This document shows positions 19,877 through 39,053 of a stretch of DNA of 40,117 bases, one piece after another. A program made the translations under genes and the position numbers. The stretch covers positions 1 to 40,117 of the IMG/VR virus record IMGVR_UViG_3300020170_000014; one strand, given 5' to 3'. Within the stretch, counting starts at the first letter, position 1. Each line of letters begins with the position of its first letter. The notes below the pieces were generated by a model. The model made no database searches. It had not been told where the DNA came from and saw nothing but the letters and a program-made list of their open reading frames with translations. The stretch comes from a virus.

Positions 19877-20986
19877 CTAAACTCCAGTAATTCCGGTTCC
19901 TTTTGAACTCCTTCGGAAAGCCTTAGGAATCATTTGTCCTATGACATAAAACCTAGCTATTCTTCCTGCTTGGTCAGGGATAGTAAGTGGCTTCTGGTAG
20001 TACCATCCATTGAATTCAGATGGCATATCAAGAGCGAGTGCCCCTGTTCCTTCATATGTTTCCATAGTTCCAAAATCAACTTTTTCAAGGACATCAGAAT
20101 ATTCCTCAGGAACTTCTGTTCTTCCCATCCAATCCATATAACTTTCGTTGTTCATCCATAACGTTTGTGCTGTTGAAAAATCATCCCGCATGATTGACAT
20201 GTCTCGGTAAGAAAGTGCGCTAAATCCTGCCGCATTTCTAAGCTCAGCATTGTTTCTCTCTCCATACTTTGCGCGTACCCGAACTTTGTCATAGCCAACC
20301 GCTTCATACGATGCGCGAACGTTTGGTGTTAAAAGCTGCTCGTAGAGTGACCAAATTGTTTTTGTCGTGTATGCAGCGTTTGGTGTTTCTCCAGCAAGTC
20401 CTGATGCGATAGCACTGTCATACTGTGTTGCCATAGTAGCCAACGTTAATTTGCCACCACTATACGCAGTGAGCGTTGAGTCTAAGACAGGATAAGTTGA
20501 TCGAGAGAGTCCGCCAATAGTGGAAACATTTGTTCCATCATCAATTATTGCACCAAGTCCAAGTGGTTGTGATGCGGTTCCAAATCCAAATACCGCTGCT
20601 CCAAGTGCCTGAAGTGCTTGTGCTGCTGCTTTTTCGTATTTGAAAGTATCGAGATTTATAAGACCAAGGGCTCCTGCGTTTGCAAAAGACTCAAGCATAA
20701 TGGAAACGACGGGTTGGGTGAAAGCGGTGTGTGCAAAACTTCCGGTTACTGTGGTAGAAACAGCAGAGCTGTTAAGTGTTTCAAGACCCGTAAAGAATTG
20801 CCCAGAAGTATCTGAAACAACATCATAGGTAACATCTTCTGTTTTTCCTTGAAATGGTTTTCCTTGAGAAACAAGACGCGAATAAACCGTGGGAGAATTT
20901 AATACCTGATCAACAACTTTTGTATAGAGTTGTCTATTGCCAAAGTTATCAACTCTGTTTCCAAACTGGATACCGTCATATGCCAT
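19877..20986 (-). CDS. Major capsid protein (HK97-like fold)
   Basis: 369 residues from the ATG at 20986 (AAGGAG 6 nt ahead); a frame 10 codons longer has no ribosome site. Order fits an HK97-type shell protein without delta-domain repeats: N-terminal arm (FGNRVDNFGNRQLYTKVVDQVLNSP), E-loop region (TYDVVSDTSGQFFTGLETLNSS), spine and P-domain helices (FKYEKAAAQALQALGAAVFGFG), and a closing strand (YYQKPLTIPDQAGRIARFYVIG). It follows the scaffold gene directly. Assignment rests on size, composition and gene order (portal-scaffold-MCP). Confidence 0.85.
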   Translation of the reverse strand: MAYDGIQFGNRVDNFGNRQLYTKVVDQVLNSPTVYSRLVSQGKPFQGKTEDVTYDVVSDTSGQFFTGLETLNSSAVSTTVTGSFAHTAFTQPVVSIMLESFANAGALGLINLDTFKYEKAAAQALQALGAAVFGFGTASQPLGLGAIIDDGTNVSTIGGLSRSTYPVLDSTLTAYSGGKLTLATMATQYDSAIASGLAGETPNAAYTTKTIWSLYEQLLTPNVRASYEAVGYDKVRVRAKYGERNNAELRNAAGFSALSYRDMSIMRDDFSTAQTLWMNNESYMDWMGRTEVPEEYSDVLEKVDFGTMETYEGTGALALDMPSEFNGWYYQKPLTIPDQAGRIARFYVIGQMIPKAFRRSSKGTGITGV

Positions 20987-21098
20987 ATAAATCTCCTTGT
21001 TGTGGTTTTTATCCACAAAAAAACTCGCCCCCCAAAAGGTAAGCGAGTAAGTCTCGTAATTTAGATATAGTGTACTGTCTCTAAGGGAGGGGTGTCAA
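20987..21098 (-). promoter_or_regulatory. Promoter and terminator-like leader of the MCP gene
   Basis: Minus strand: TTGACA (21093-21098), 18 bp, TACACT (21069-21074); then a hairpin ACTCGC/GCGAGT (21043-21048 with 21023-21028) followed by seven T; then a small TGTGG/CCACA stem (21001-21017) and the AAGGAG site. It makes the MCP separately controlled from the scaffold gene. Confidence 0.5.
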
Positions 21099-22050: not shown

Positions 22051-22722
22051 TCAACTTCCTAAAAGGATTTCGGAAATACGTTCGTTAATCTCCACCACTC
22101 CCCTGGTCTTGTTTTGTCTCGGAGTATCGACCGCTACGGTTTCTGGGTGCCAATCATCGGGATCTTGGAGAGTGTATTCTTCCCCATTCTTTATAAAAGT
22201 TTTTTTAAAAAAAGAATCTTTCTCTTCTTTAGTATTCTTTAGTATATCTATAGTACCTTCCGGTTTTTTCCGGAGTGGGTTGTTGAGCGTGTCCGACCTC
22301 ATGCTATCCATTCCGGTTTTTTCCGGAGTGGGTTGTTGAGCGTGTCCGACCTCAATTACCCCATTCCGGTTTTTTCCGGAGTGGGTTTCTTGTCCATTCC
22401 GGTCTACGTCGGACTGTGTCTCTCCTGCAATCCAAAAGGGGAATAATTTCCTATGTTGGATTTTCCCCAAATCGTCTCGTATGATCTCGCGACGTACAAG
22501 ATCTAGCGAGACAAGCTTAGAAACAATATCAGATACTGTTCCCGACTTTAGCCCTACTTGTTCCCCAAGGTATGTGTTTGTTGCGTAACAGTATCCCTTG
22601 TTGTTGCTTAGTGCTAAAACTCTTCCATAAATTACTTTCTCAGACATAGATAGGTCATCTCTGACCATAATATGTGCGGGTATATAGCATGCACCAACTG
22701 ATTCTTCGGAATAATTTTCCAT
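22051..22722 (-). CDS. Winged-HTH replication-initiator-like protein
   Basis: 223 residues. The N-terminal 95 residues form a winged helix-turn-helix: ACYIPAHIMVRDDLSMSEKVIYGRVLALS, YATNTYLGEQVGLKSGTVSDIVSKLVSLDLVRREII, then a wing ending HRKLFPF. The middle (about 110-150) is a spacer whose DNA carries iterons. The C-terminus is charged. The fold and internal repeats resemble phage/plasmid initiators whose origin lies inside the gene (as lambda O). A transcription regulator is the main alternative. It sits alone between portal and scaffold with its own promoter, terminator and structured leader; TGGAGG precedes the ATG. Confidence 0.65.
   Translation of the reverse strand: MENYSEESVGACYIPAHIMVRDDLSMSEKVIYGRVLALSNNKGYCYATNTYLGEQVGLKSGTVSDIVSKLVSLDLVRREIIRDDLGKIQHRKLFPFWIAGETQSDVDRNGQETHSGKNRNGVIEVGHAQQPTPEKTGMDSMRSDTLNNPLRKKPEGTIDILKNTKEEKDSFFKKTFIKNGEEYTLQDPDDWHPETVAVDTPRQNKTRGVVEINERISEILLGS
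22258..22417. repeat. Iterons inside the HTH gene (candidate origin)
   Basis: Two identical 44-bp units (22258-22301, 22311-22354) and a third unit matching over 24 bp (22364-22387) start every 53 bp with TTCCGGTTTTTTCCGG. A fourth TTCCGG lies at 22397, followed by GTCGGAC, the inverse of the GTCCGAC found in units 1 and 2. The 53-bp step is not a multiple of 3, so the repeats are read in different frames; they are kept as DNA, not as protein. Confidence 0.8.
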
Positions 22723-22983: not shown

Positions 22984-25020
22984 TCATAACACACCCTGGG
23001 GAGGGAGTCCGGTAGGAGGTGTTGCGGGTATTTGCGCAGTGTTAGTTACGGTAGGGTTCTGTGGCTGTGTAGGGCCTGTGGCAGGTTGTCCTTGTGCCAC
23101 CAAAGGGTTTGGTTGTTGCATCTGCTGACTAGCCATTTGCTGCTGTTCTAGAGCCGTCTGGTTCATAAGTGCCTGTGCCATAGCGGTAGAGGTATCAAGA
23201 CCCTTAATTACTTTTTGCATATATGCCATGGGATCTGTTTTCATAAGCATAAGTTTTTCTGTTCTTCCCTCAGGGTCAGAGAGTCCCATGTCAGTAAAGA
23301 ACGTATAGGGATCGATCATCTCCATCTTTGCCATATCCATAGCGTTGTTTTGTGCTCTCAACTTATCAGTGCCTGATGCTTTGATTTTAACTACCATTCC
23401 CTCGTCAACCATGTTTCTATTTAGTTTCATCCACACTGTTTCTCCGGCAATACCAAGAATTTCCTTAAAATGATCTTTGGTATAACGAAGCTTTATAAAC
23501 TGAAGTGACCAACGAGCCATCCACTCTGCAGCGGCATTAATAGTATCTTCAACAAGATCATCAGCCCGAGTGAAGTCATTTTCACGAGCTATTTGATTAT
23601 TGGTAGCGGGAGCATTTCCCATGATTTGCCCCCGTACTGATTGTGATCCTGCAATAGAATACATGCGGTTACGGAGGTTATTTACCTCTTCGAACTCTGC
23701 GGGAGTAGGCCGTTGCGGCTCTATGTACTTATGAGTGTTGTTTACATTGCCATCAACAACAAAGTCTTCGTCGGGATCATTCATATCGATGGACTCAACA
23801 TCAGCAGACGTTAGACCCGCTTCCTTTGAGAAAACATTGTGTCCCCTATTATCAAGTGTTTCGTCAATTTGTTTTCCCCGCTTATCAAGTGTTTCTTGAT
23901 TTCTAATATTCTGTTCGATACGAGACGTTTCATCCATCGGTTGTCTTCCCCACTGGTCATAACCGAGAAAATAGTAGGGCTTTTCAGGGGTTCTGAAATA
24001 GTTGTGATAAACCTTTTCCTCTTTAATATTTTCAGGAACCTGACCGGTTATGAGAAGATGTTGCAAGTCGTTCTCAGTCACTCCTTGCCGGACCCCTTTC
24101 TCATCATAAGAGAAATAGCGGATCTCTCCCTCATAGTCAAAATTAGGATTCTTCATTTTATGGAGTAAGCATTTCTTATACTTCCACATCACCCCATCAA
24201 TGCGCTCCCACTGAGTGTCGGAGTGTCGTTTAAATTGATGAAACCATGTCTCTCGAATCTTTATCGTCGTTGCCATGAGTTTCCATCCTGGCGTATCACC
24301 TACCATAAGACCACTTCTTTGAAGTTCTTTAAAAAACTCTTCTTTCTTGTTAGGAAAACGCATCACTACTTCCTCAACCGTAAGAGGAACGAGTTGCGAA
24401 ACAAACTGCATCTCATTAGCGTCATTGGTAGGGCATGTGTGATCAATATCAATTTCATCAGGATGGATACACTCAAAAACATAGTCATCAATTTCAGGAT
24501 TCCACCGCACCTTAATGCAGCCCGTGAAGTACACTGGATGGTGCTTGAAAGCCAATCCCAGTACTTTCCTATTCTCTCGGTCTTTTATGTCCGTATCGAC
24601 CGCTTTAGAGACTTCCTGTGCCATAAGAACTGACTCATCACTATCGTTGCCAGGCGTTACCATAAGGTCAGGAAGACGAGACATGGCTAGAGGCTTAATG
24701 GTTGACTCAATCTCATAAAGGACATTGTCTTGGAACCGAGATTCGTAGCTTTTAAGATCTCTATCTCGTTCCCGTTGTGCTATTTGCCTCCCGAAGTAAT
24801 ACATCTCGTTTTTTCTTCGTCTGCTATAAAGATCATAGCTTTCTTCATAAAAAATACGGGATTCATTGATTCGTTTATCGATAATATCAACCAGTTCTTC
24901 GTCGGGGATAGCAAGTTCAAGAGGATCAAGGGGCTTTGTTTTGAGATCTTCGTTCTCTCTGTTTTTACTTGTTTTTACATCATTGAAAGATCCCTGCATG
25001 GGAATAGTAGTAGAAGCCAT
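22984..25020 (-). CDS. Portal protein
   Basis: 678 residues from the ATG at 25020; the frame runs two codons further but only to a TTG. Long podovirus-type portal: clip/stem region with PEKPYYFLGYDQWGRQPMDETSRIEQN, a helical wing (DFTRADDLVEDTINAAAEWMARWSLQFIKLRY), and a Gln/Pro-rich C-terminal tail (QQQMASQQMQQPN...) like the barrel or disordered end of P22-size portals. It forms the 12-mer through which DNA is packaged and ejected. It lies after TerL and before scaffold/MCP, separated from the latter by the HTH module. Confidence 0.88.
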   Translation of the reverse strand: MASTTIPMQGSFNDVKTSKNRENEDLKTKPLDPLELAIPDEELVDIIDKRINESRIFYEESYDLYSRRRKNEMYYFGRQIAQRERDRDLKSYESRFQDNVLYEIESTIKPLAMSRLPDLMVTPGNDSDESVLMAQEVSKAVDTDIKDRENRKVLGLAFKHHPVYFTGCIKVRWNPEIDDYVFECIHPDEIDIDHTCPTNDANEMQFVSQLVPLTVEEVVMRFPNKKEEFFKELQRSGLMVGDTPGWKLMATTIKIRETWFHQFKRHSDTQWERIDGVMWKYKKCLLHKMKNPNFDYEGEIRYFSYDEKGVRQGVTENDLQHLLITGQVPENIKEEKVYHNYFRTPEKPYYFLGYDQWGRQPMDETSRIEQNIRNQETLDKRGKQIDETLDNRGHNVFSKEAGLTSADVESIDMNDPDEDFVVDGNVNNTHKYIEPQRPTPAEFEEVNNLRNRMYSIAGSQSVRGQIMGNAPATNNQIARENDFTRADDLVEDTINAAAEWMARWSLQFIKLRYTKDHFKEILGIAGETVWMKLNRNMVDEGMVVKIKASGTDKLRAQNNAMDMAKMEMIDPYTFFTDMGLSDPEGRTEKLMLMKTDPMAYMQKVIKGLDTSTAMAQALMNQTALEQQQMASQQMQQPNPLVAQGQPATGPTQPQNPTVTNTAQIPATPPTGLPPQGVL

Positions 25021-25082
25021 ATACAAAAAAACCCACAGCCAGATTTTTGGTGTGGGGTATGTCCCTTTATTCTATTGTAGCA
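25021..25082 (-). promoter_or_regulatory. Late leader of the portal gene
   Basis: Minus strand: TGC-TACAAT (25074-25082), AATAAAGGGACATA, then a hairpin CCCACACC/GGCTGTGGG (25049-25056 with 25032-25040, one bulge), seven T, GTAT and ATG. No ribosome site. Same order as at 6934-6994, including TTTTTGTATATGGC across the start. Confidence 0.55.
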
Positions 25083-25680: not shown

Positions 25681-27129
25681 TTATCTCTTAGGCACAAATT
25701 TATCGATATTGATAGGTAATTGGTTTCCATCAATCATACGAGCAGCGGGGTGTGCATAAGGAAGGGTAGGTTTGTCAGACTTACTAATAGCACCTACTTT
25801 AGCATCAATCCACTTAAGGTGTTTAAACTGGTATCGTTGGTCATCGCATGCATGGTCTTCACCATCACTATCTATATCCTCTACGTTATTTTTGTCATAA
25901 ACCTGATCAGGGAGTGTTCGTATGAGGTTGGTACAATTTCTTGTAATCTGCCAATACGGTAACTCGTCAGGTGCATTAGAGAGCCAATTGTGCATCACTG
26001 ACCACCCCGCAACCCTGTCGTTGTTTGCGCTTCTAAGAAGACGCCATAATTCATTATCATCAACAAATTGGTCCCTAATGCTTTTTGACATATCCTGACC
26101 TTTGTTAAAGATAGTTGGATCAGCCCGCACCCACGATACATCTTTGAGGGTAAGATTAAATAACTTTAGCTGTGTTTGTATTTCTTGACTCCACTCCTTA
26201 GGATTCTTCTGTGTTCCGTAAGTTTCAAAGAATGTTTTGGCACGGTAGAAGTGGGTAGCATTAAAAAATACTTTTTCTATTGTTGTAAGGTGAAACGAGA
26301 AAGGTGCGGTACGTCCCCAATCCATACCGCCAACGACAAGAGACCCCTCTTGGGGAATAAAGGGGCGTATGATATGTAAACCCTCGTTCCACTCCTCAAA
26401 GTATTGATCTTCAAAGGTAGTCCACGATCCCTCCATAAATGCTTTGCGCTTCTTTTCAGGAAGGGATCGTAGTTGTTCTACATACGAGGGATCAATGTAC
26501 TTATTATCATCATATCGTGCAGGGACATAGAAAAATCGACTTTGTTCATGGTCTAGTTTGTCGGAATTAGGAGCTATCCACTTCTGTTTTACCCATCCAT
26601 GACCTATCGAACCAGGGTTTGTAGCCCCCACAAACTTAGTATCAGGAATACCTGGATAACGAAGCCGAAAGCGTAAATCATCAAAAGTCTCTTCGTTATT
26701 CTTGGTGAGTTCTTCCACAAGTATGGCTGCAAATTCCACGGAAGCGTATTTACTTGGATCATCAAGATTACGAAGAAGAATATTAAATCCGCCCCACTTA
26801 TCACTAGCTTTAAAAACATAGCCCTCCTCTCTTGTATCCTTTAGCTCCCCAAGCCATGGGGGGAATTCACGTTTTATTCTACTGATTTGTCGGTCTTTAA
26901 GGGTTGGGTAATCTTCAGAGAATAGACCGATTGGTATACCTTTGATTCCATACTTGGCGGAGTAATACATTCCCAATGCCAATGCACTCCATCTAACAAA
27001 ATAAGATTTACCTCCAGCAGCGGCCCCTCCGTAAAGAAGATACTTACATTCTGGTTGGAAGAGTCTCTTAAACGCCTCGAGTTGTTTGGGTTGAAAGTTG
27101 GCAAGTTTGGTGAAGTTGATTTCACGCAC
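25681..27129 (-). CDS. Terminase large subunit
   Basis: 482 residues. ATPase half: Walker A GGAAAGGKS at 34-42, Walker B FAAILVEEL at about 138-146, coupling motif GATNPGS at about 171-177. RNase-H-like nuclease half: Asp in VVGGMDWGRTAPFSF, then WVRADPTIF, and DSDGEDHACDDQRY near the C-terminus. It cuts and pumps DNA into the prohead with TerS and portal. It overlaps the preceding small gene by 8 nt. Confidence 0.95.
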   Translation of the reverse strand: MREINFTKLANFQPKQLEAFKRLFQPECKYLLYGGAAAGGKSYFVRWSALALGMYYSAKYGIKGIPIGLFSEDYPTLKDRQISRIKREFPPWLGELKDTREEGYVFKASDKWGGFNILLRNLDDPSKYASVEFAAILVEELTKNNEETFDDLRFRLRYPGIPDTKFVGATNPGSIGHGWVKQKWIAPNSDKLDHEQSRFFYVPARYDDNKYIDPSYVEQLRSLPEKKRKAFMEGSWTTFEDQYFEEWNEGLHIIRPFIPQEGSLVVGGMDWGRTAPFSFHLTTIEKVFFNATHFYRAKTFFETYGTQKNPKEWSQEIQTQLKLFNLTLKDVSWVRADPTIFNKGQDMSKSIRDQFVDDNELWRLLRSANNDRVAGWSVMHNWLSNAPDELPYWQITRNCTNLIRTLPDQVYDKNNVEDIDSDGEDHACDDQRYQFKHLKWIDAKVGAISKSDKPTLPYAHPAARMIDGNQLPINIDKFVPKR

Positions 27130-28289: not shown

Positions 28290-28598
28290 TCATTCCTTGT
28301 AATACGTATCATCTCCTGAGTAAACGTGTTTTGCGTTCTTTATCTCATTTTCAGTATACCCATACTGACGGGCTTTTTCCTCTCCATATACATCAACCCA
28401 CCGTTTATTAAGGCTTCCTTTTCTGTGGTGTGATGTTATGTCATCAGGGAAAGCTTTTCGTTCCTCTTTGATTGAATCACTCGTAAACTCTACTCCTTTG
28501 TCAGGAGGTGATACTCCTTTATTCTGACACACTTTACACGGAAGGTATCCTAAAAAAACGTGACTAACCGCTTCTCCCGTGTGACACGCGGGACACAT
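28290..28598 (-). CDS. Zinc-ribbon protein, unknown
   Basis: 102 residues from the ATG at 28598 (TGATG overlap; GGAGG upstream). CPAC ... CKVC at 2-5 and 21-24 binds zinc; then EFTSDSIKEERKAFPDDITSHHRKGSLNKRWVDVYGEEKARQYGYTENEIKNAKHVY, a pattern I associate with uncharacterised phage proteins. Possible nucleic-acid or adaptor role. Confidence 0.65.
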   Translation of the reverse strand: MCPACHTGEAVSHVFLGYLPCKVCQNKGVSPPDKGVEFTSDSIKEERKAFPDDITSHHRKGSLNKRWVDVYGEEKARQYGYTENEIKNAKHVYSGDDTYYKE

Positions 28599-28666
28599 CA
28601 CTTTTTCTTTCCTCCCATACACTTTTTACAATCATCCTTATCATTTCCATGAGGACACTTCTTCAT
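28598..28666 (-). CDS. 22-residue zinc mini-protein
   Basis: A tiny frame, MKKCPHGNDKDDCKKCMGG then Lys. C-P-H ... C-x-x-C could hold one zinc. GGAAG precedes the ATG, and its TGA overlaps the next ATG (TGATG). It follows the GroEL stop by 6 bases. Supported by spacing, overlap and metal-ligand pattern only. Confidence 0.5.
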   Translation of the reverse strand: MKKCPHGNDKDDCKKCMGGKKK

Positions 28667-28672
28667 AAAAAA

Positions 28673-30256
28673 TCACTTCCTTTCTTCTCGTACTTTAGGA
28701 ACAATTATACAAGAACTGGTAAGTATCTGAATAGCAACAGAGACCGCATTGGTAAGAGCATTTAAAGGGACGAGAGCGGGGTCGATAATACCTGCCGCGA
28801 CGAGATCTACCGGTTCTCCTGAAGTAACATCGATACCATAGTTATTATCTAAAAGAGCAAGACTCATTCCTGACGAAAACTGATCTATTCCTGCATTACT
28901 AATAAGACGGTAGAAAGGTTCGAGGAGTGCCTTCTCTAAAATACGGTGCGCAGGTATTTCCTTGTTAAGAACATGGCGTATTCTAAAGTAGATCATCTCT
29001 CCCCCTGGTACAATTCCCGATTCAAGTGCTGCTCGTGTTGCTGCTACCGAATCCAAGACCCGCTCTCTGCGCTCTTTCATCTCCACTTCCGTTGCACCCC
29101 CTACTCGAATAACCGCTACTCCGTTCGTAAGTTTAGCGAGTCGTTCTTTTAGCTTTTCTTTGTCAAATTCACCGCTCTCTTCCTCAATTTGCTTCTTAAT
29201 CGAATCTACTCGAGCTTGAAGCGAGTGAGAGTCCCCAGAACCACCCGTTATAATAGTTCCTGACTTTGTTGAAACAATAGACTCAGCTTTACCAAGATGA
29301 CTTATGGTTATATCTTCAATTTTATGCCCTGCATCCTCGGTAATAAACTTAGCACCAACAAAAAGCGCAATATCCTGAAGAAACTCTTTTTGGTTCTGTC
29401 CGAACGAAGGAGCTTTAATACAAAGTACCGATAACTTGCCCTTTAATTTGTTCTGAAGGAGCGTAGGAAGTACGTCACCCCCTATTTCTGGAGCAATAAT
29501 CACCAGTTTATCTTGCTGCTTCCATAGCTCTTCAAGGAGCTTCATAAGCGGTTCTACAACGAGTAGGGATTTATCTGTAACAAGAAATCTTGCATCATGA
29601 AGGATTGCTTCCATATGCTCCGGATGAGTAATGAAGAGGGGGTGGTAGAATCCAGTGTCAAACTGCATTCCTTTTTGAAACTCCACAGTAGTTACTGCGT
29701 TCTTTGATTCCTCAACCGTAATTATTCCATCTTTTGTTGCCTGAGTAAGTGTTCCGGCTACAAGGTTTCCTATCTTCTCGTCTTCTGCTGATATCGTAGC
29801 AATACGAGTTAGCTGATCTTCGGTGGTGATAGGAGTTGCTTGAGAAAGAATCTCATCTATGAGAAGATCTAACCCACTCTCAAGTCCTGATCTAAGTTCC
29901 ATGGGATTAAATCCCGACGCAATATACTTAAATGCTTCTTGAATAATGGCATGAGCTAAGATGATGGTAACCGTTGTCCCATCTCCTACTTCATCAACCT
30001 GTTTACGCGCAGCCTGAATAATGAGTTGCGCACCCATATTTTCGAATTCATCAAGTAGTTCTATACTTCGTGCTACTGATACCCCATCGTGAAGAACAAT
30101 GCGTTCATAGATCTCTCCTCGGGGATTTGTTTTAGCAATCGCGACATTCTGTCCTCGTGGTCCAAGAGTAGTACCAACGCTTTTACAAACAATATCTATT
30201 CCTTTAAGAAACTTCGACCTCGCTTCTTGGTCAAAGAGAACATCAGTTTTGATCAT
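28673..30256 (-). CDS. groEL: Phage-encoded chaperonin GroEL
   Basis: 527 residues from the ATG at 30256 (GAGGAGG just upstream). Bacterial-type group I chaperonin along its whole length: TLGPRG (30-35), catalytic-loop HDGVSVAR with Asp57, GDGTT (91-95), apical-domain EFQKGMQFDTGFYHPLF, and the second equatorial block GVAVIRVGGATEVEMKERRERVLDSVAATRAALESGIVPGGE with the ATP-hydrolysis Asp. Key nucleotide residues are kept, so it looks active. The usual Gly-Gly-Met tail is missing (ends KVREERK), and there is a short insert before Asp57. It follows groES with a 14-nt overlap. Probably folds capsid or tail proteins. Confidence 0.96.
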   Translation of the reverse strand: MIKTDVLFDQEARSKFLKGIDIVCKSVGTTLGPRGQNVAIAKTNPRGEIYERIVLHDGVSVARSIELLDEFENMGAQLIIQAARKQVDEVGDGTTVTIILAHAIIQEAFKYIASGFNPMELRSGLESGLDLLIDEILSQATPITTEDQLTRIATISAEDEKIGNLVAGTLTQATKDGIITVEESKNAVTTVEFQKGMQFDTGFYHPLFITHPEHMEAILHDARFLVTDKSLLVVEPLMKLLEELWKQQDKLVIIAPEIGGDVLPTLLQNKLKGKLSVLCIKAPSFGQNQKEFLQDIALFVGAKFITEDAGHKIEDITISHLGKAESIVSTKSGTIITGGSGDSHSLQARVDSIKKQIEEESGEFDKEKLKERLAKLTNGVAVIRVGGATEVEMKERRERVLDSVAATRAALESGIVPGGEMIYFRIRHVLNKEIPAHRILEKALLEPFYRLISNAGIDQFSSGMSLALLDNNYGIDVTSGEPVDLVAAGIIDPALVPLNALTNAVSVAIQILTSSCIIVPKVREERK

Positions 30257-30560
30257 TTTCCTCCTCAAAAGTACTTCGTATATCTTGTATCTTCACCATA
30301 TAGAATCGCTTTGATCCGTGGACGAAAAAGTCATAGCTTCCCTCATACGAAAGAAAAACTACAGTATCTCCTACCCGTGCATAGCGGCGCATTTCAAGAG
30401 TTGCTCCAAAGTCGGTCCGGATATCATCACCTACGGCAGTAACTCGACCACTCAAAAGCCGCGATCTATTACTTGGGCTTGAAACAAGGGAAAGGCCACT
30501 TGATTCTTGCTCAGTAATTTCACAAATAACAATCCCCGGCGCGGGGGTAAACTTAGTCAT
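30243..30560 (-). CDS. groES: Co-chaperonin GroES
   Basis: 105 residues. Core: FTPAPGIVICEI (strand), mobile-loop region about 16-36 (EQESSGLSLVSSPSNRSRL), GRVTAVGDDI, then ARVGDTVVFLSYEG and FYMVKIQDI. The C-terminal STFEEENDQN extends past the usual end. It should cap the GroEL ring made from the next gene. GGAGG lies 3 nt before the ATG, and the start overlaps the preceding gene by 8 nt. Together they form one operon. Confidence 0.9.
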   Translation of the reverse strand: MTKFTPAPGIVICEITEQESSGLSLVSSPSNRSRLLSGRVTAVGDDIRTDFGATLEMRRYARVGDTVVFLSYEGSYDFFVHGSKRFYMVKIQDIRSTFEEENDQN

Positions 30561-30741
30561 TGTCCTCCAATCCTATAAATCTTCCTGAGTCCGATTCCAA
30601 AAGAATCTGGTATTTTTGAACATCCTCGTGTACTTTTCTACGAAACCACACAGAAAGAGGTATGCCGTTAAGAAGCTTTTTAAGAATATCGAGCTCAGAC
30701 CTGTCTTTTAGATAAAATCCAATACGAAGCGGTTGAAGCAT
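30553..30741 (-). CDS. Small protein opening the chaperonin operon
   Basis: 62 residues from the ATG at 30741 (or 64 from 30747). Basic, mixed helix and strand (PLRIGFYLKDRSELDILKKLLNGIPLSVWFRRKVHEDVQKYQ). No family. TATACT lies just before the start, and a 16-bp near-palindrome (30741-30756) covers both start codons and the -10, so expression is probably controlled here. No ribosome site. Confidence 0.55.
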   Translation of the reverse strand: MLQPLRIGFYLKDRSELDILKKLLNGIPLSVWFRRKVHEDVQKYQILLESDSGRFIGLEDND

Positions 30742-30759
30742 ATACATAAAAGTATACTA
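30739..30759. promoter_or_regulatory. Operator-like near-palindrome at the chaperonin operon
   Basis: Contains TATACATAAAAGTATA, an inverted repeat of TATAC around a 6-bp AT core. Its 21-bp context is identical to the reverse complement of 38088-38108, inside the kinase-gene promoter. The minus-strand -10 TATACT and the start codons of the 30553 gene lie within it. Confidence 0.6.
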
Positions 30760-30832: not shown

Positions 30833-31198
30833 TTATTTCCTTATCATTATTATTTCTTTCAAGTTTTCTTTAAGAATAAGTATTTGTTGGTTAAACCTAA
30901 AAACAGCCCGATTGTATCCTTCTTCTTGCGTAAACTCCCCTTCTGGCGCATATTCATCACACACATAGCACCAACCGCTATCATCATTATGTGCATGTCC
31001 ACTATGCTTACCTACTGGATGTTCTTTCATCATCAGTCCATCCAGGATAGTAAAAAGGAGGCCGAATAATTCTGTTTCCTTTTCTTTAAAGAATTGCTTG
31101 CATGCCTCGCTAGGTTCAGCGAGCCCAGAGGTTTTGTCATTGTATCCATGAGTGATACACTCACCTAGTATTCTTCGTATATCTTTAAATTCACTCAT
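30833..31198 (-). CDS. Early protein, paralogue of the 33183 gene
   Basis: 121 residues. Shares (L/F)xTxLDGL(M/V)M and (Y/W)NxAxxxFNQxI with the product of 33183-33461. Between them sits an insert with HSGHAHNDDSGWCYVCDEY, possibly one zinc site. The ATG overlaps the previous stop (ATGA). Unknown function. Confidence 0.6.
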   Translation of the reverse strand: MSEFKDIRRILGECITHGYNDKTSGLAEPSEACKQFFKEKETELFGLLFTILDGLMMKEHPVGKHSGHAHNDDSGWCYVCDEYAPEGEFTQEEGYNRAVFRFNQQILILKENLKEIIMIRK

Positions 31199-31686
31199 AA
31201 CCCGTGCTCCTTTTGGATATCTGAAATAATAGATAGCGATTTCTCAAATCCCGTTATCATCATCCACGCTCCAAACGATGATTCCTTATCCCGATACTCT
31301 GGATAATTATTAGTTTTCTCGTTTTCTATCCTCTCTTTACACTCCTGGAGGAGTTGTACAGTAGTACTCCTAATGAATTTTTTAATATGTTCGCCCTTAT
31401 CATATTTTGGAGTACCTGGTGGAGCTATTCCCCACATTAAATCAAAATCTTTTTCCCACTCAGGCTGTGGTTTATCTGTCTGAACTGGTAGTTGTGCGTC
31501 ATTCATGAGGACGCCCCTTTCTTCTTTTTCTCCTCCTACTTGTAATAAACTATAATTGGGACACTCGGGATTGTTGCAAAACGGAGCTATAAAATTGTCG
31601 TTTCCGTAGCTATATTTCATTTCTTGACCACACTGGACACACATTAGATTTTCGATAGTGGCTTTCAAATAAATAGGACAGCTCAT
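31195..31686 (-). CDS. Fusion of a zinc ribbon with a duplicated early protein
   Basis: 163 residues. Residues 1-60 are a zinc ribbon (CVQCG ... CNNPECPNYSLLQV), a type usually found alone in phages. From residue 61 (MNDAQLPVQTDKPQPEWEK) it matches the 33616-33999 protein at both ends, including QLLQECKERIE and SIISDIQKEHGL, while the middle differs. It looks like a gene duplicate with a swapped centre and a fused N-terminal module. Unknown function. Confidence 0.6.
   Translation of the reverse strand: MSCPIYLKATIENLMCVQCGQEMKYSYGNDNFIAPFCNNPECPNYSLLQVGGEKEERGVLMNDAQLPVQTDKPQPEWEKDFDLMWGIAPPGTPKYDKGEHIKKFIRSTTVQLLQECKERIENEKTNNYPEYRDKESSFGAWMMITGFEKSLSIISDIQKEHGL
31450..31508. repeat. 59-bp direct repeat, copy 1
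   Basis: Identical to 33943-34001. It encodes the shared start MNDAQLPVQTDKPQPEWEK of two early proteins. Further near-identical blocks recur at 31190-31230 with 33611-33650 and around 31330 with 33780, in the same order. Confidence 0.85.
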
Positions 31687-33461: not shown

Positions 33462-33619
33462 AGACTATGTAAAGTATTTCTATTCGGTTCAAAAGGGTCA
33501 GCGGGTAAGCCAAGTGCTTCTCTATAGCGCCGTACCTGTAGATATACGACCATGCCGCCAGTTATTGCACCGAATAGAAATACTCCTCCAAAAAATAAAT
33601 ACATTATAAATTCACTCAT
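33458..33619 (-). CDS. 53-residue membrane protein
   Basis: MSEFIMYLFFGGVFLFGAITGGMVVYL forms one glycine-rich membrane helix, followed by a cytosol-type tail (QVRRYREALGLPADPFEPN). ATGA overlaps on both sides. It begins MSEF, like the 30833 gene at the matching place in the duplicated block, so the duplication boundary runs through its start. Unknown role. Confidence 0.6.
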   Translation of the reverse strand: MSEFIMYLFFGGVFLFGAITGGMVVYLQVRRYREALGLPADPFEPNRNTLHSL

Positions 33620-33999
33620 AACCCATGCTCCTTTTGGATATCTGAAATGATACTTTTAGCAGTTTCGAGGACTGAATTTCTATCACATTCACACTCATCT
33701 CCATCAGCAATCGAGTACCCACACAGTTGACAGGTACAGCAAGAGCCATGAGTTGATTTACGTTTATTTTTTTGTTTTTCTATCCTCTCTTTACACTCCT
33801 GGAGGAGTTGGGAGAGCAGATCAGTTATAAGCACTCTTAGTTCTTCCTCAATCTCTGTGCGTGGAGCATAGTCTTCCTCACCCCATGTCACTATCATGAC
33901 TCCTTGGCGTTGCAAGTCTCGTTTGACCAATTTATTTAGCAGTTTTTCCCACTCAGGCTGTGGTTTATCTGTCTGAACTGGTAGTTGTGCGTCATTCAT
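33616..33999 (-). CDS. Early protein with zinc site, duplicate of the 31195 gene
   Basis: 127 residues. Both ends match the 31195-31686 product. Here the centre carries CCTCQLCGYSIADGDECECD, a possible zinc site absent from the other copy. AAGGA precedes the ATG. Unknown function. Confidence 0.6.
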   Translation of the reverse strand: MNDAQLPVQTDKPQPEWEKLLNKLVKRDLQRQGVMIVTWGEEDYAPRTEIEEELRVLITDLLSQLLQECKERIEKQKNKRKSTHGSCCTCQLCGYSIADGDECECDRNSVLETAKSIISDIQKEHGL

Positions 34000-38119: not shown

Positions 38120-38515
38120 TTATTTATATGGTGTTTTCTCTTTCTTTAGTTCTTTTAACCGCTCAGACCAATACAAATAGGCCATTTTTCGGTCTTTTGT
38201 ATGAAGCAGGTTTGACTTCAATCGTAGCGAATCAAACCGACCTTGTCCCAACTGTTTAATTTTGAACTCTCTATAAGCCTCTCTATCTTCTTTTTCCCAG
38301 TATCTGTGACATCCAAAGCAAAGCGTATCGCAGTTTTCCTCGTCGAATCGAACACTTTCCATGCGTCGTCCAAAGTAGTGGGAACACTGGGTTTTCTTAG
38401 AATATACTCCGCACCGAACACATGTATACCTATCCCGTGTACGTATATACTTTGAGAACATAGAGTCAGCTTTGTCTATTTTTAGATACATCTCTTCCAA
38501 AAGGACAGGATTCAT
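38120..38515 (-). CDS. NinG/HNH-like nuclease
   Basis: 131 residues from the ATG at 38515 (GGGAG upstream). DKADSMFSKYIRTRDRYTCVRCGVYSKKTQCSHYFGRRMESVRFDEENCDTLCFGCHRYWEKEDREAYREF: CxxC plus SHYFGR and CFGCH make a zinc-supported His-Asn-His-type site as in phage NinG recombination proteins. It may resolve branched DNA or recombine phage DNA. It overlaps the preceding surface-protein gene by 50 nt. Confidence 0.8.
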   Translation of the reverse strand: MNPVLLEEMYLKIDKADSMFSKYIRTRDRYTCVRCGVYSKKTQCSHYFGRRMESVRFDEENCDTLCFGCHRYWEKEDREAYREFKIKQLGQGRFDSLRLKSNLLHTKDRKMAYLYWSERLKELKKEKTPYK

Positions 38516-39053
38516 TACTACAAATCTCCCTATCCCCACCCCAATACGTAAGATCACTTTCACAATAAGGACACTTTTCTTTGTTTTTAGTGTATTTAAC
38601 TATCAAAATACCAACTCCTAAAACAAGAACCGCCCCTACAATAAGATACCAGTTAAAGTCTCCTGTTGCGGGAAGTTGTGCACTTATTCCTGCTTCTTGG
38701 GTATTGCAGTGGTCTTGTGCTCTGAGACAACCAAGGCTCCCAGTTCTCCCATCAGTTCGTCCATCAGATCGGTCTTCTCGTTGAACATCAGTAGAATCTG
38801 ACGTTGAGTTTGGATACTGTAGTGAAAATTGCGTAGGATTAGAGCTTGGGCTAGCAGAATAACTAGCTGTAGGACTAAGAATAGGACTATAAGTGACATA
38901 CGGACTCCTTGTTGGAACAATACTAGGGGAAGGACAGTCATTTTCTGCTTGTGGTGTTCCACAGTGTGTCCACGCAAATACCATCTGAGTTGATTCCCCT
39001 AATACTACAAAAAAAATAATAAGTAAAAAAATACCAATAAAAAATTGCTTCAT
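38466..39053 (-). CDS. LPATG surface-type protein with zinc-ribbon tail
   Basis: 195 residues. N-terminal hydrophobic signal (1-27), Ser/Thr/Pro-rich ectodomain (40-100), LPATG at 127-131, membrane helix 136-153, then KYTKNKEK. Unlike normal sortase substrates it does not stop there: a C4 zinc ribbon (C161, C164, C178, C183, CPYCESD...CSNESC) follows on the predicted cytosolic side. It could be a sortase-anchored outer part plus a released tail, or a membrane-spanning sensor. AAGGAG precedes the ATG. Confidence 0.7.
   Translation of the reverse strand: MKQFFIGIFLLIIFFVVLGESTQMVFAWTHCGTPQAENDCPSPSIVPTRSPYVTYSPILSPTASYSASPSSNPTQFSLQYPNSTSDSTDVQREDRSDGRTDGRTGSLGCLRAQDHCNTQEAGISAQLPATGDFNWYLIVGAVLVLGVGILIVKYTKNKEKCPYCESDLTYWGGDREICSNESCPFGRDVSKNRQS

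Follow-up and report, generated by a model that had tools for sequence, protein, structure and literature searches.

The best-known chaperonins of phages are encoded by single genes in giant phages, and the 40,117-base whole viral record IMGVR_UViG_3300020170_000014 (the window, analysed here at its full length) raises the question of what a GroES-GroEL pair is doing in a genome of such modest size. The reading that we favor, at a probability of about two in three, is that the two genes would yield a functional chaperonin of group I together with its lid, that this machine would fold a structural protein of the phage, and that groEL derives from, or has a common ancestor with, the GroEL of one group of the ultra-small Patescibacteria, which are the probable hosts.

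The two genes form a tightly spaced operon on the minus strand, with both frames intact and both products above curated family cut-offs; the sequence-only reading of this DNA, which had proposed that the phage itself carries both GroES and GroEL, complete, in a genome of about 40 kb, was correct in this respect. The groES gene (30243..30560, 105 aa), which is also the operon partner of groEL in relatives, overlaps groEL (28673..30256, 527 aa) by 14 nt, and likely ribosome-binding sites are present for both (GGAGG at 30564..30568 for groES and GAGGAGG at 30260..30266 for groEL, each on the minus strand). The open groEL frame reaches back to a TTG at 30268, but the ATG at 30256 is the more likely start because the TTG sits at the edge of the Shine-Dalgarno-like GAGGAGG (30266-30260). 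That motif also codes for part of the acidic GroES C-terminus, which had been taken for an extension of the protein; the residues in question, EEENDQN, result from reading the ribosome-binding site and opening codons of groEL (GAG GAG GAA AAT GAT CAA AAC) in the groES frame. As the ribosome-binding region explains the acidic tail and relatives are without it, a functional extension was rejected. The operon had further been credited with its own small leader gene and operator, neither of which was borne out. The supposed leader, a 64-aa minus-strand ORF of doubtful status (30553..30747), is not conserved and has no homologue in the phage lineage to which the window belongs, a search for a CIRCE site with up to 3 mismatches found none, a palindrome search for an operator returned nothing convincing, and promoter-like matches were near chance level (11 found versus 7.7 +/- 2.6 expected); on these four grounds an operator proper to the pair is unsupported. 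Regulation of the heat-shock type was rejected as well, given the absent CIRCE site and the lack of a convincing palindrome.

GroEL matches Pfam PF00118 (Cpn60_TCP1) from residue 29 to 525 (191 bits, E 4e-56, cut-off 34.3) and the PHROG ‘chaperonin groEL’ at 446 bits, a full-length family match that places it among the group I chaperonins (GroEL/Cpn60). Residue comparison in E. coli numbering agrees with the earlier statement that the protein kept its ATP residues and lost its GGM tail: the ATP-site residues G32, D52, D87, T89, T90, D398, G415, and D495 are all present, and the C-terminus, ...CIIVPKVREERK, is without the Gly-Gly-Met tail, a feature that is common in group I and not required for membership. 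The tail is absent in every member of the phage lineage, and Patescibacteria copies mostly end in a Met/Gly-rich one. Overall, the protein is 38% identical to its E. coli counterpart and at most 46% to those from Patescibacteria. For GroES, the sequence match is weak (23.0 bits to Pfam PF00166 (Cpn10), cut-off 21.1; 31.6 bits to the PHROG ‘co-chaperonin GroES’), and the predicted model (pLDDT 84) reaches a Z of up to 11.2, over 82 residues, against structures of bacterial Cpn10 and of 7.6 against T4 gp31, a lid of the GroES fold, bringing the protein closer to bacterial Cpn10 than to the T4 lid; the family match, together with the Cpn10 beta-barrel predicted by the model, puts it in the GroES/Cpn10 family. 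The model contains a low-confidence loop around residues 19-24, and a hydrophobic LSLV at residues 23-26 aligns in register with the GGIVL of the E. coli mobile loop. In the model, GroES is a Cpn10 with a putative mobile loop of probable flexibility, and the hydrophobic loop motif fits its predicted docking onto GroEL. In the closest pair, dN/dS is 0.06 for groEL and 0.26 for groES, both rough values because synonymous changes are near saturation throughout; judged by these ratios, groEL is under strong purifying selection and groES under weaker.

The distribution of the pair was surveyed in a census that started from the capsid gene, so that genomes were not chosen for their GroEL. The capsid gene is carried by 44 IMG/VR contigs, and the near-complete records number 17 (37.7-42.0 kb), including the window, two GenBank phages, and two further contigs, one from a bacterial bin and the other found via the terminase. 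The window belongs to the lineage in having the phrog_9953 major capsid protein (MCP) together with portal and large terminase subunit (TerL) homologues. GroEL was found in 16 of the 17 near-complete records, all 16 of which have a GroES-model match close upstream of it, the two genes often overlapping by 4 nt in the lineage; these matches include records outside the set from which the GroES model was built (2e-21 in G014, 2e-17 in G038, and 2e-8 in G029). The small genome size is real: exact repeats of 80-149 bases sit at the ends of five records, and GenBank lists another two as circular (MW202566 and MG269973), so that 7/17 are closed or circular. Closed genomes of 39.8-41.6 kb carry the pair (G004, G014, G049, G052, and G058:C1), and the window, which has no terminal repeat, agrees with the closed members in length. 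Its GroEL is 24-55% identical to those of its lineage relatives. The pair is a near-fixed, conserved feature of this lineage of 38-42-kb tailed phages, the single exception being G046, a complete-looking genome of 41.7 kb with neither groES nor groEL; the pair is therefore dispensable in at least one member. As a separate observation, one groEL frame (L077, G001:C1:21739-23319) is broken by one in-frame TAG, for which sequencing error, recoding, and decay are all possible explanations.

Downstream of groES-groEL in the window are a Zn-ribbon ORF (28290..28622, 110 aa), the small and large terminase subunits (the latter at 25681..27129), the portal gene (22984..25026), and the major capsid gene (19877..21016), with all of these coordinates on the minus strand. 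The large terminase subunit, recognized by family matches, is a marker of the lineage; the portal protein was assigned by homology to the gene annotated as such in MW202566, and MCP, the lineage anchor, by its match to phrog_9953 ‘major head protein’ (E 1.7e-27). The Zn-ribbon ORF, a downstream neighbor kept in most lineage members, gave no confident Pfam or PHROG match and only insignificant PDB fold matches (E at least 7), and its candidacy as an obligate chaperonin partner was rejected because the GroEL-less G046 also carries it. The description of the genome as podovirus-like is unproven, as a PHROG search for tail-type genes in the window and MW202566 resolved no type and the latter phage, the nearest GenBank relative, was labeled Myoviridae by its depositors. 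Several other minus-strand genes of the window may be recorded here: two small paralogous proteins (31195-31686 and 33616-33999) that are 39% identical, the first of which contains a motif resembling a Zn ribbon (CxNPxCPNYSLLQxG) and is similar to an ORF of G046; a replication-initiation/DnaD-like PHROG match (22051-22722, E 4e-12) at an odd site between the portal and capsid genes; and an ORF (38466-39053) with a weak LPXTG-anchor match near its C-terminus (Pfam, 20.2 bits versus a cut-off of 20).

Two members of the lineage are GenBank phages. Caudoviricetes sp. cthkR962 (MW202566.1; Manatee Spring, circular, 38,956 bp) has its mhsp60 (groES)-groeL pair upstream of the terminase, portal, and capsid genes, as in the window, with GroEL 41% and MCP 33% identical and most other genes far diverged. 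TM7 phage DolZOral124_53_65 (MG269973.1; circular, 38,840 bp), the host of which is annotated as candidate division TM7, has an MCP 29% identical to that of the window and a Cpn60 gene after a 100-aa GroES-like ORF; unlike in the window, this operon lies away from the terminase, and the encoded GroEL (L031:15183-16625) is short (480 aa), 24-27% identical, and on a very long branch. Both GroEL and GroES are likewise annotated in larger genomes, namely those of Flavobacterium elemovirus (60 kb, named FspP), Cellulophaga Callevirus (73 kb), and Flavobacterium immuto (160 kb). The elemovirus has the order GroEL-GroES, whereas groES comes first in the window, and the immuto GroEL groups with other bacteria in the tree, unlike the window lineage. 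With pairs annotated in 60-kb, 73-kb, and 160-kb phages, genomes that encode both proteins were already on record, and the rarity of the pair, in view of these phages and the 39-kb relative MW202566, had been overstated. Soil viral GroELs have also been detected in transcripts and peptides (Wu et al., 2021; PMC8390657).

The kinship of the phage GroEL was examined in trees of 117 and 50 rows, with the elemovirus and Callevirus proteins left out of the final versions (long branches). In both trees, the phage lineage, L102 (G048), L007 (G005), and one set of Patescibacteria GroELs (set B) are grouped together. The branch that splits this group from other Patescibacteria and from the other bacteria, a limited sample of phyla, has support of 100 and 100/100, values that cover the split and not the joining point inside the set. 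The set was partly picked as best matches to the window, and members picked by Pfam score alone fall into the same set. A His at E. coli position 51 (K51) is found in 23 of 26 phage-lineage rows and 31 of 32 rows of the Patescibacteria set, as against 0 of the 57 other rows. The best bacterial BLAST match of the window GroEL lies in the set as well (454 bits, 46%; versus 416 for Rhizobium and 413 for Acidobacteriota), the members of which are its closest bacterial relatives at 41-46% identity. Trees and residues together point to an origin of the phage groEL from, or an ancestry shared with, one Patescibacteria group, and the best bacterial identity of 46% rules out a recent host copy. The separate positions of L102 and L007 within the set suggest that each was acquired independently; the second comes from a 40.3-kb phage (G005) that lacks the lineage capsid gene and has a GroES-like ORF just upstream of GroEL. 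Set B keeps the Met/Gly-rich tail, T91, R452, and conserved hydrophobic residues at substrate-groove positions 234 and 264, whereas the phage lineage has lost the tail and the inter-ring residue R452, changed T91 to V/L/A and A383 to G, mostly replaced the V of inter-ring position 464 with E/Q/D, and often become polar at 234 and 264. These phage-specific residues fit a chaperonin in which inter-ring contacts and client range may have changed.

What is new here is that the GroEL of a near-fixed pair sits with one Patescibacteria set, on a fully supported branch, and shares with it the rare His51. Our literature search found no description of the small-phage lineage or of a Patescibacteria origin of its GroEL, although an earlier mention in a study of virioplankton chaperonins is possible (Marine et al., 2017). 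Chaperonins go unmentioned in PMC12911398 and PMC13059738, which deal with Patescibacteria phages, and in PMC10746230, which deals with CPR phages, and a search for literature on the TM7 phage itself (MG269973) found none.

Two observations, the kinship of GroEL and the annotation of MG269973 as a TM7 phage, make Patescibacteria the probable hosts of the lineage. Besides this phage, another member lies in a genome bin named Patescibacteria; bin-based host evidence is nevertheless weak, since the capsid gene occurs in one Scalindua and one Terriglobia bin as well as in the Patescibacteria one. The capsid model was not enriched in Patescibacteria genomes (1/380, the seed itself, versus 5/396 in Acidobacteriota), the 374 genomes from the class to which G249 belongs yielded one distant match, and host assignment from the presence of the capsid gene in bins was rejected, the phage being too rare in bins and enrichment lacking. 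GroEL was detected in 103 of 116 sampled Patescibacteria (about nine in ten), with one GroEL as a rule, so that the host does not obviously lack one.

For the working of the pair, the models are bacterial GroEL/GroES and phage T4, in which gp31 works with the host GroEL and is needed for folding of the capsid protein gp23; from these we infer ring assembly, ATPase activity, and the client. Phage GroEL subunits would assemble in sevens, as one ring or as two stacked together, and take up unfolded protein; once ATP is bound, a phage GroES heptamer would be able to cap the ring via its mobile loop, and the client would fold inside the capped chamber. The client would be an abundant structural protein of the phage, with MCP as the first candidate. 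A structural protein seems the most likely client because the pair is near-fixed and, in the window and its nearest relatives, has its place a short way upstream of the terminase, portal, and capsid genes. We also advance, tentatively and with the odds somewhat against it, a broader proposal: a lineage of small phages of Patescibacteria (CPR) may keep a chaperonin as a core part of its genomes, derived from that host group and acquired independently on two further occasions (G048 and G005), which then became specialized through tail loss, altered inter-ring face, and partly polar groove for the capsid protein of the phage itself, perhaps working as a single ring.

The same features were weighed against other readings of the locus. 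An unlikely one is that the chaperonin mainly supplements folding in the infected cell, relieving stress and prolonging productive infection, instead of serving one phage client. The general ATP machinery retained by GroEL, the single GroEL that is the rule in the host group, and the ability of G046 to manage without the pair are all in keeping with such a boost to the host; the polar residues at groove positions 234 and 264, hydrophobic in the host group, fit a shifted client range instead, and near-fixation and a site beside the packaging and head genes fit a need of the phage. Less probable still is a loss of encapsulation, in which GroEL would act as a holdase or a single ring and GroES would be vestigial or have another role. 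The precedent is Pseudomonas phage EL (gp146), which, like phage OBP (gp246), encodes a GroEL-like ATPase: the EL chaperonin is a distant homologue with rings that separate with ATP and shows no interaction with the GroES of E. coli (PMC7185714), and purification of the OBP chaperonin gave a single ring (PMC5934643). The missing tail and R452, the acidic or amide residues at inter-ring position 464, and the faster evolution of groES relative to groEL would suit this reading. The window departs from the EL/OBP type, which needs no co-chaperonin and is distant from bacterial GroEL, in having its own groES and a GroEL close to bacterial ones; moreover, GroES is kept by every near-complete GroEL carrier, is under purifying selection, and retains a putative hydrophobic mobile loop and, in the model, the Cpn10 fold. 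Finally, that the genes are passengers with no phage function (a transient host-derived acquisition or an assembly chimera) has next to no probability left. The clearly bacterial type of GroEL is in its favor, but the census refutes this reading, with the same operon in many independent contigs that share the capsid, portal, and terminase genes, closed genomes included (which excludes a chimera or host contamination), with intact frames and strongly constrained groEL, with identity in the lineage down to 24-40%, and with a best bacterial identity too low for a recent host copy.

A working chaperonin with a phage structural protein as its client therefore stays the preferred reading of the pair. 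The GroES-GroEL system takes up about 5% of a 40-kb genome, and nearly every near-complete member of the lineage retains it, suggesting that the machine of the host alone does not suffice for them. By the shared His and the tree, the gene is linked with one group of Patescibacteria, which offers a clue to the host for phages of bacteria that are hard to culture. The finding also opens testable questions, namely which protein is the client of a virus-specific chaperonin and how the loss of the tail and the inter-ring changes affect its cycle.
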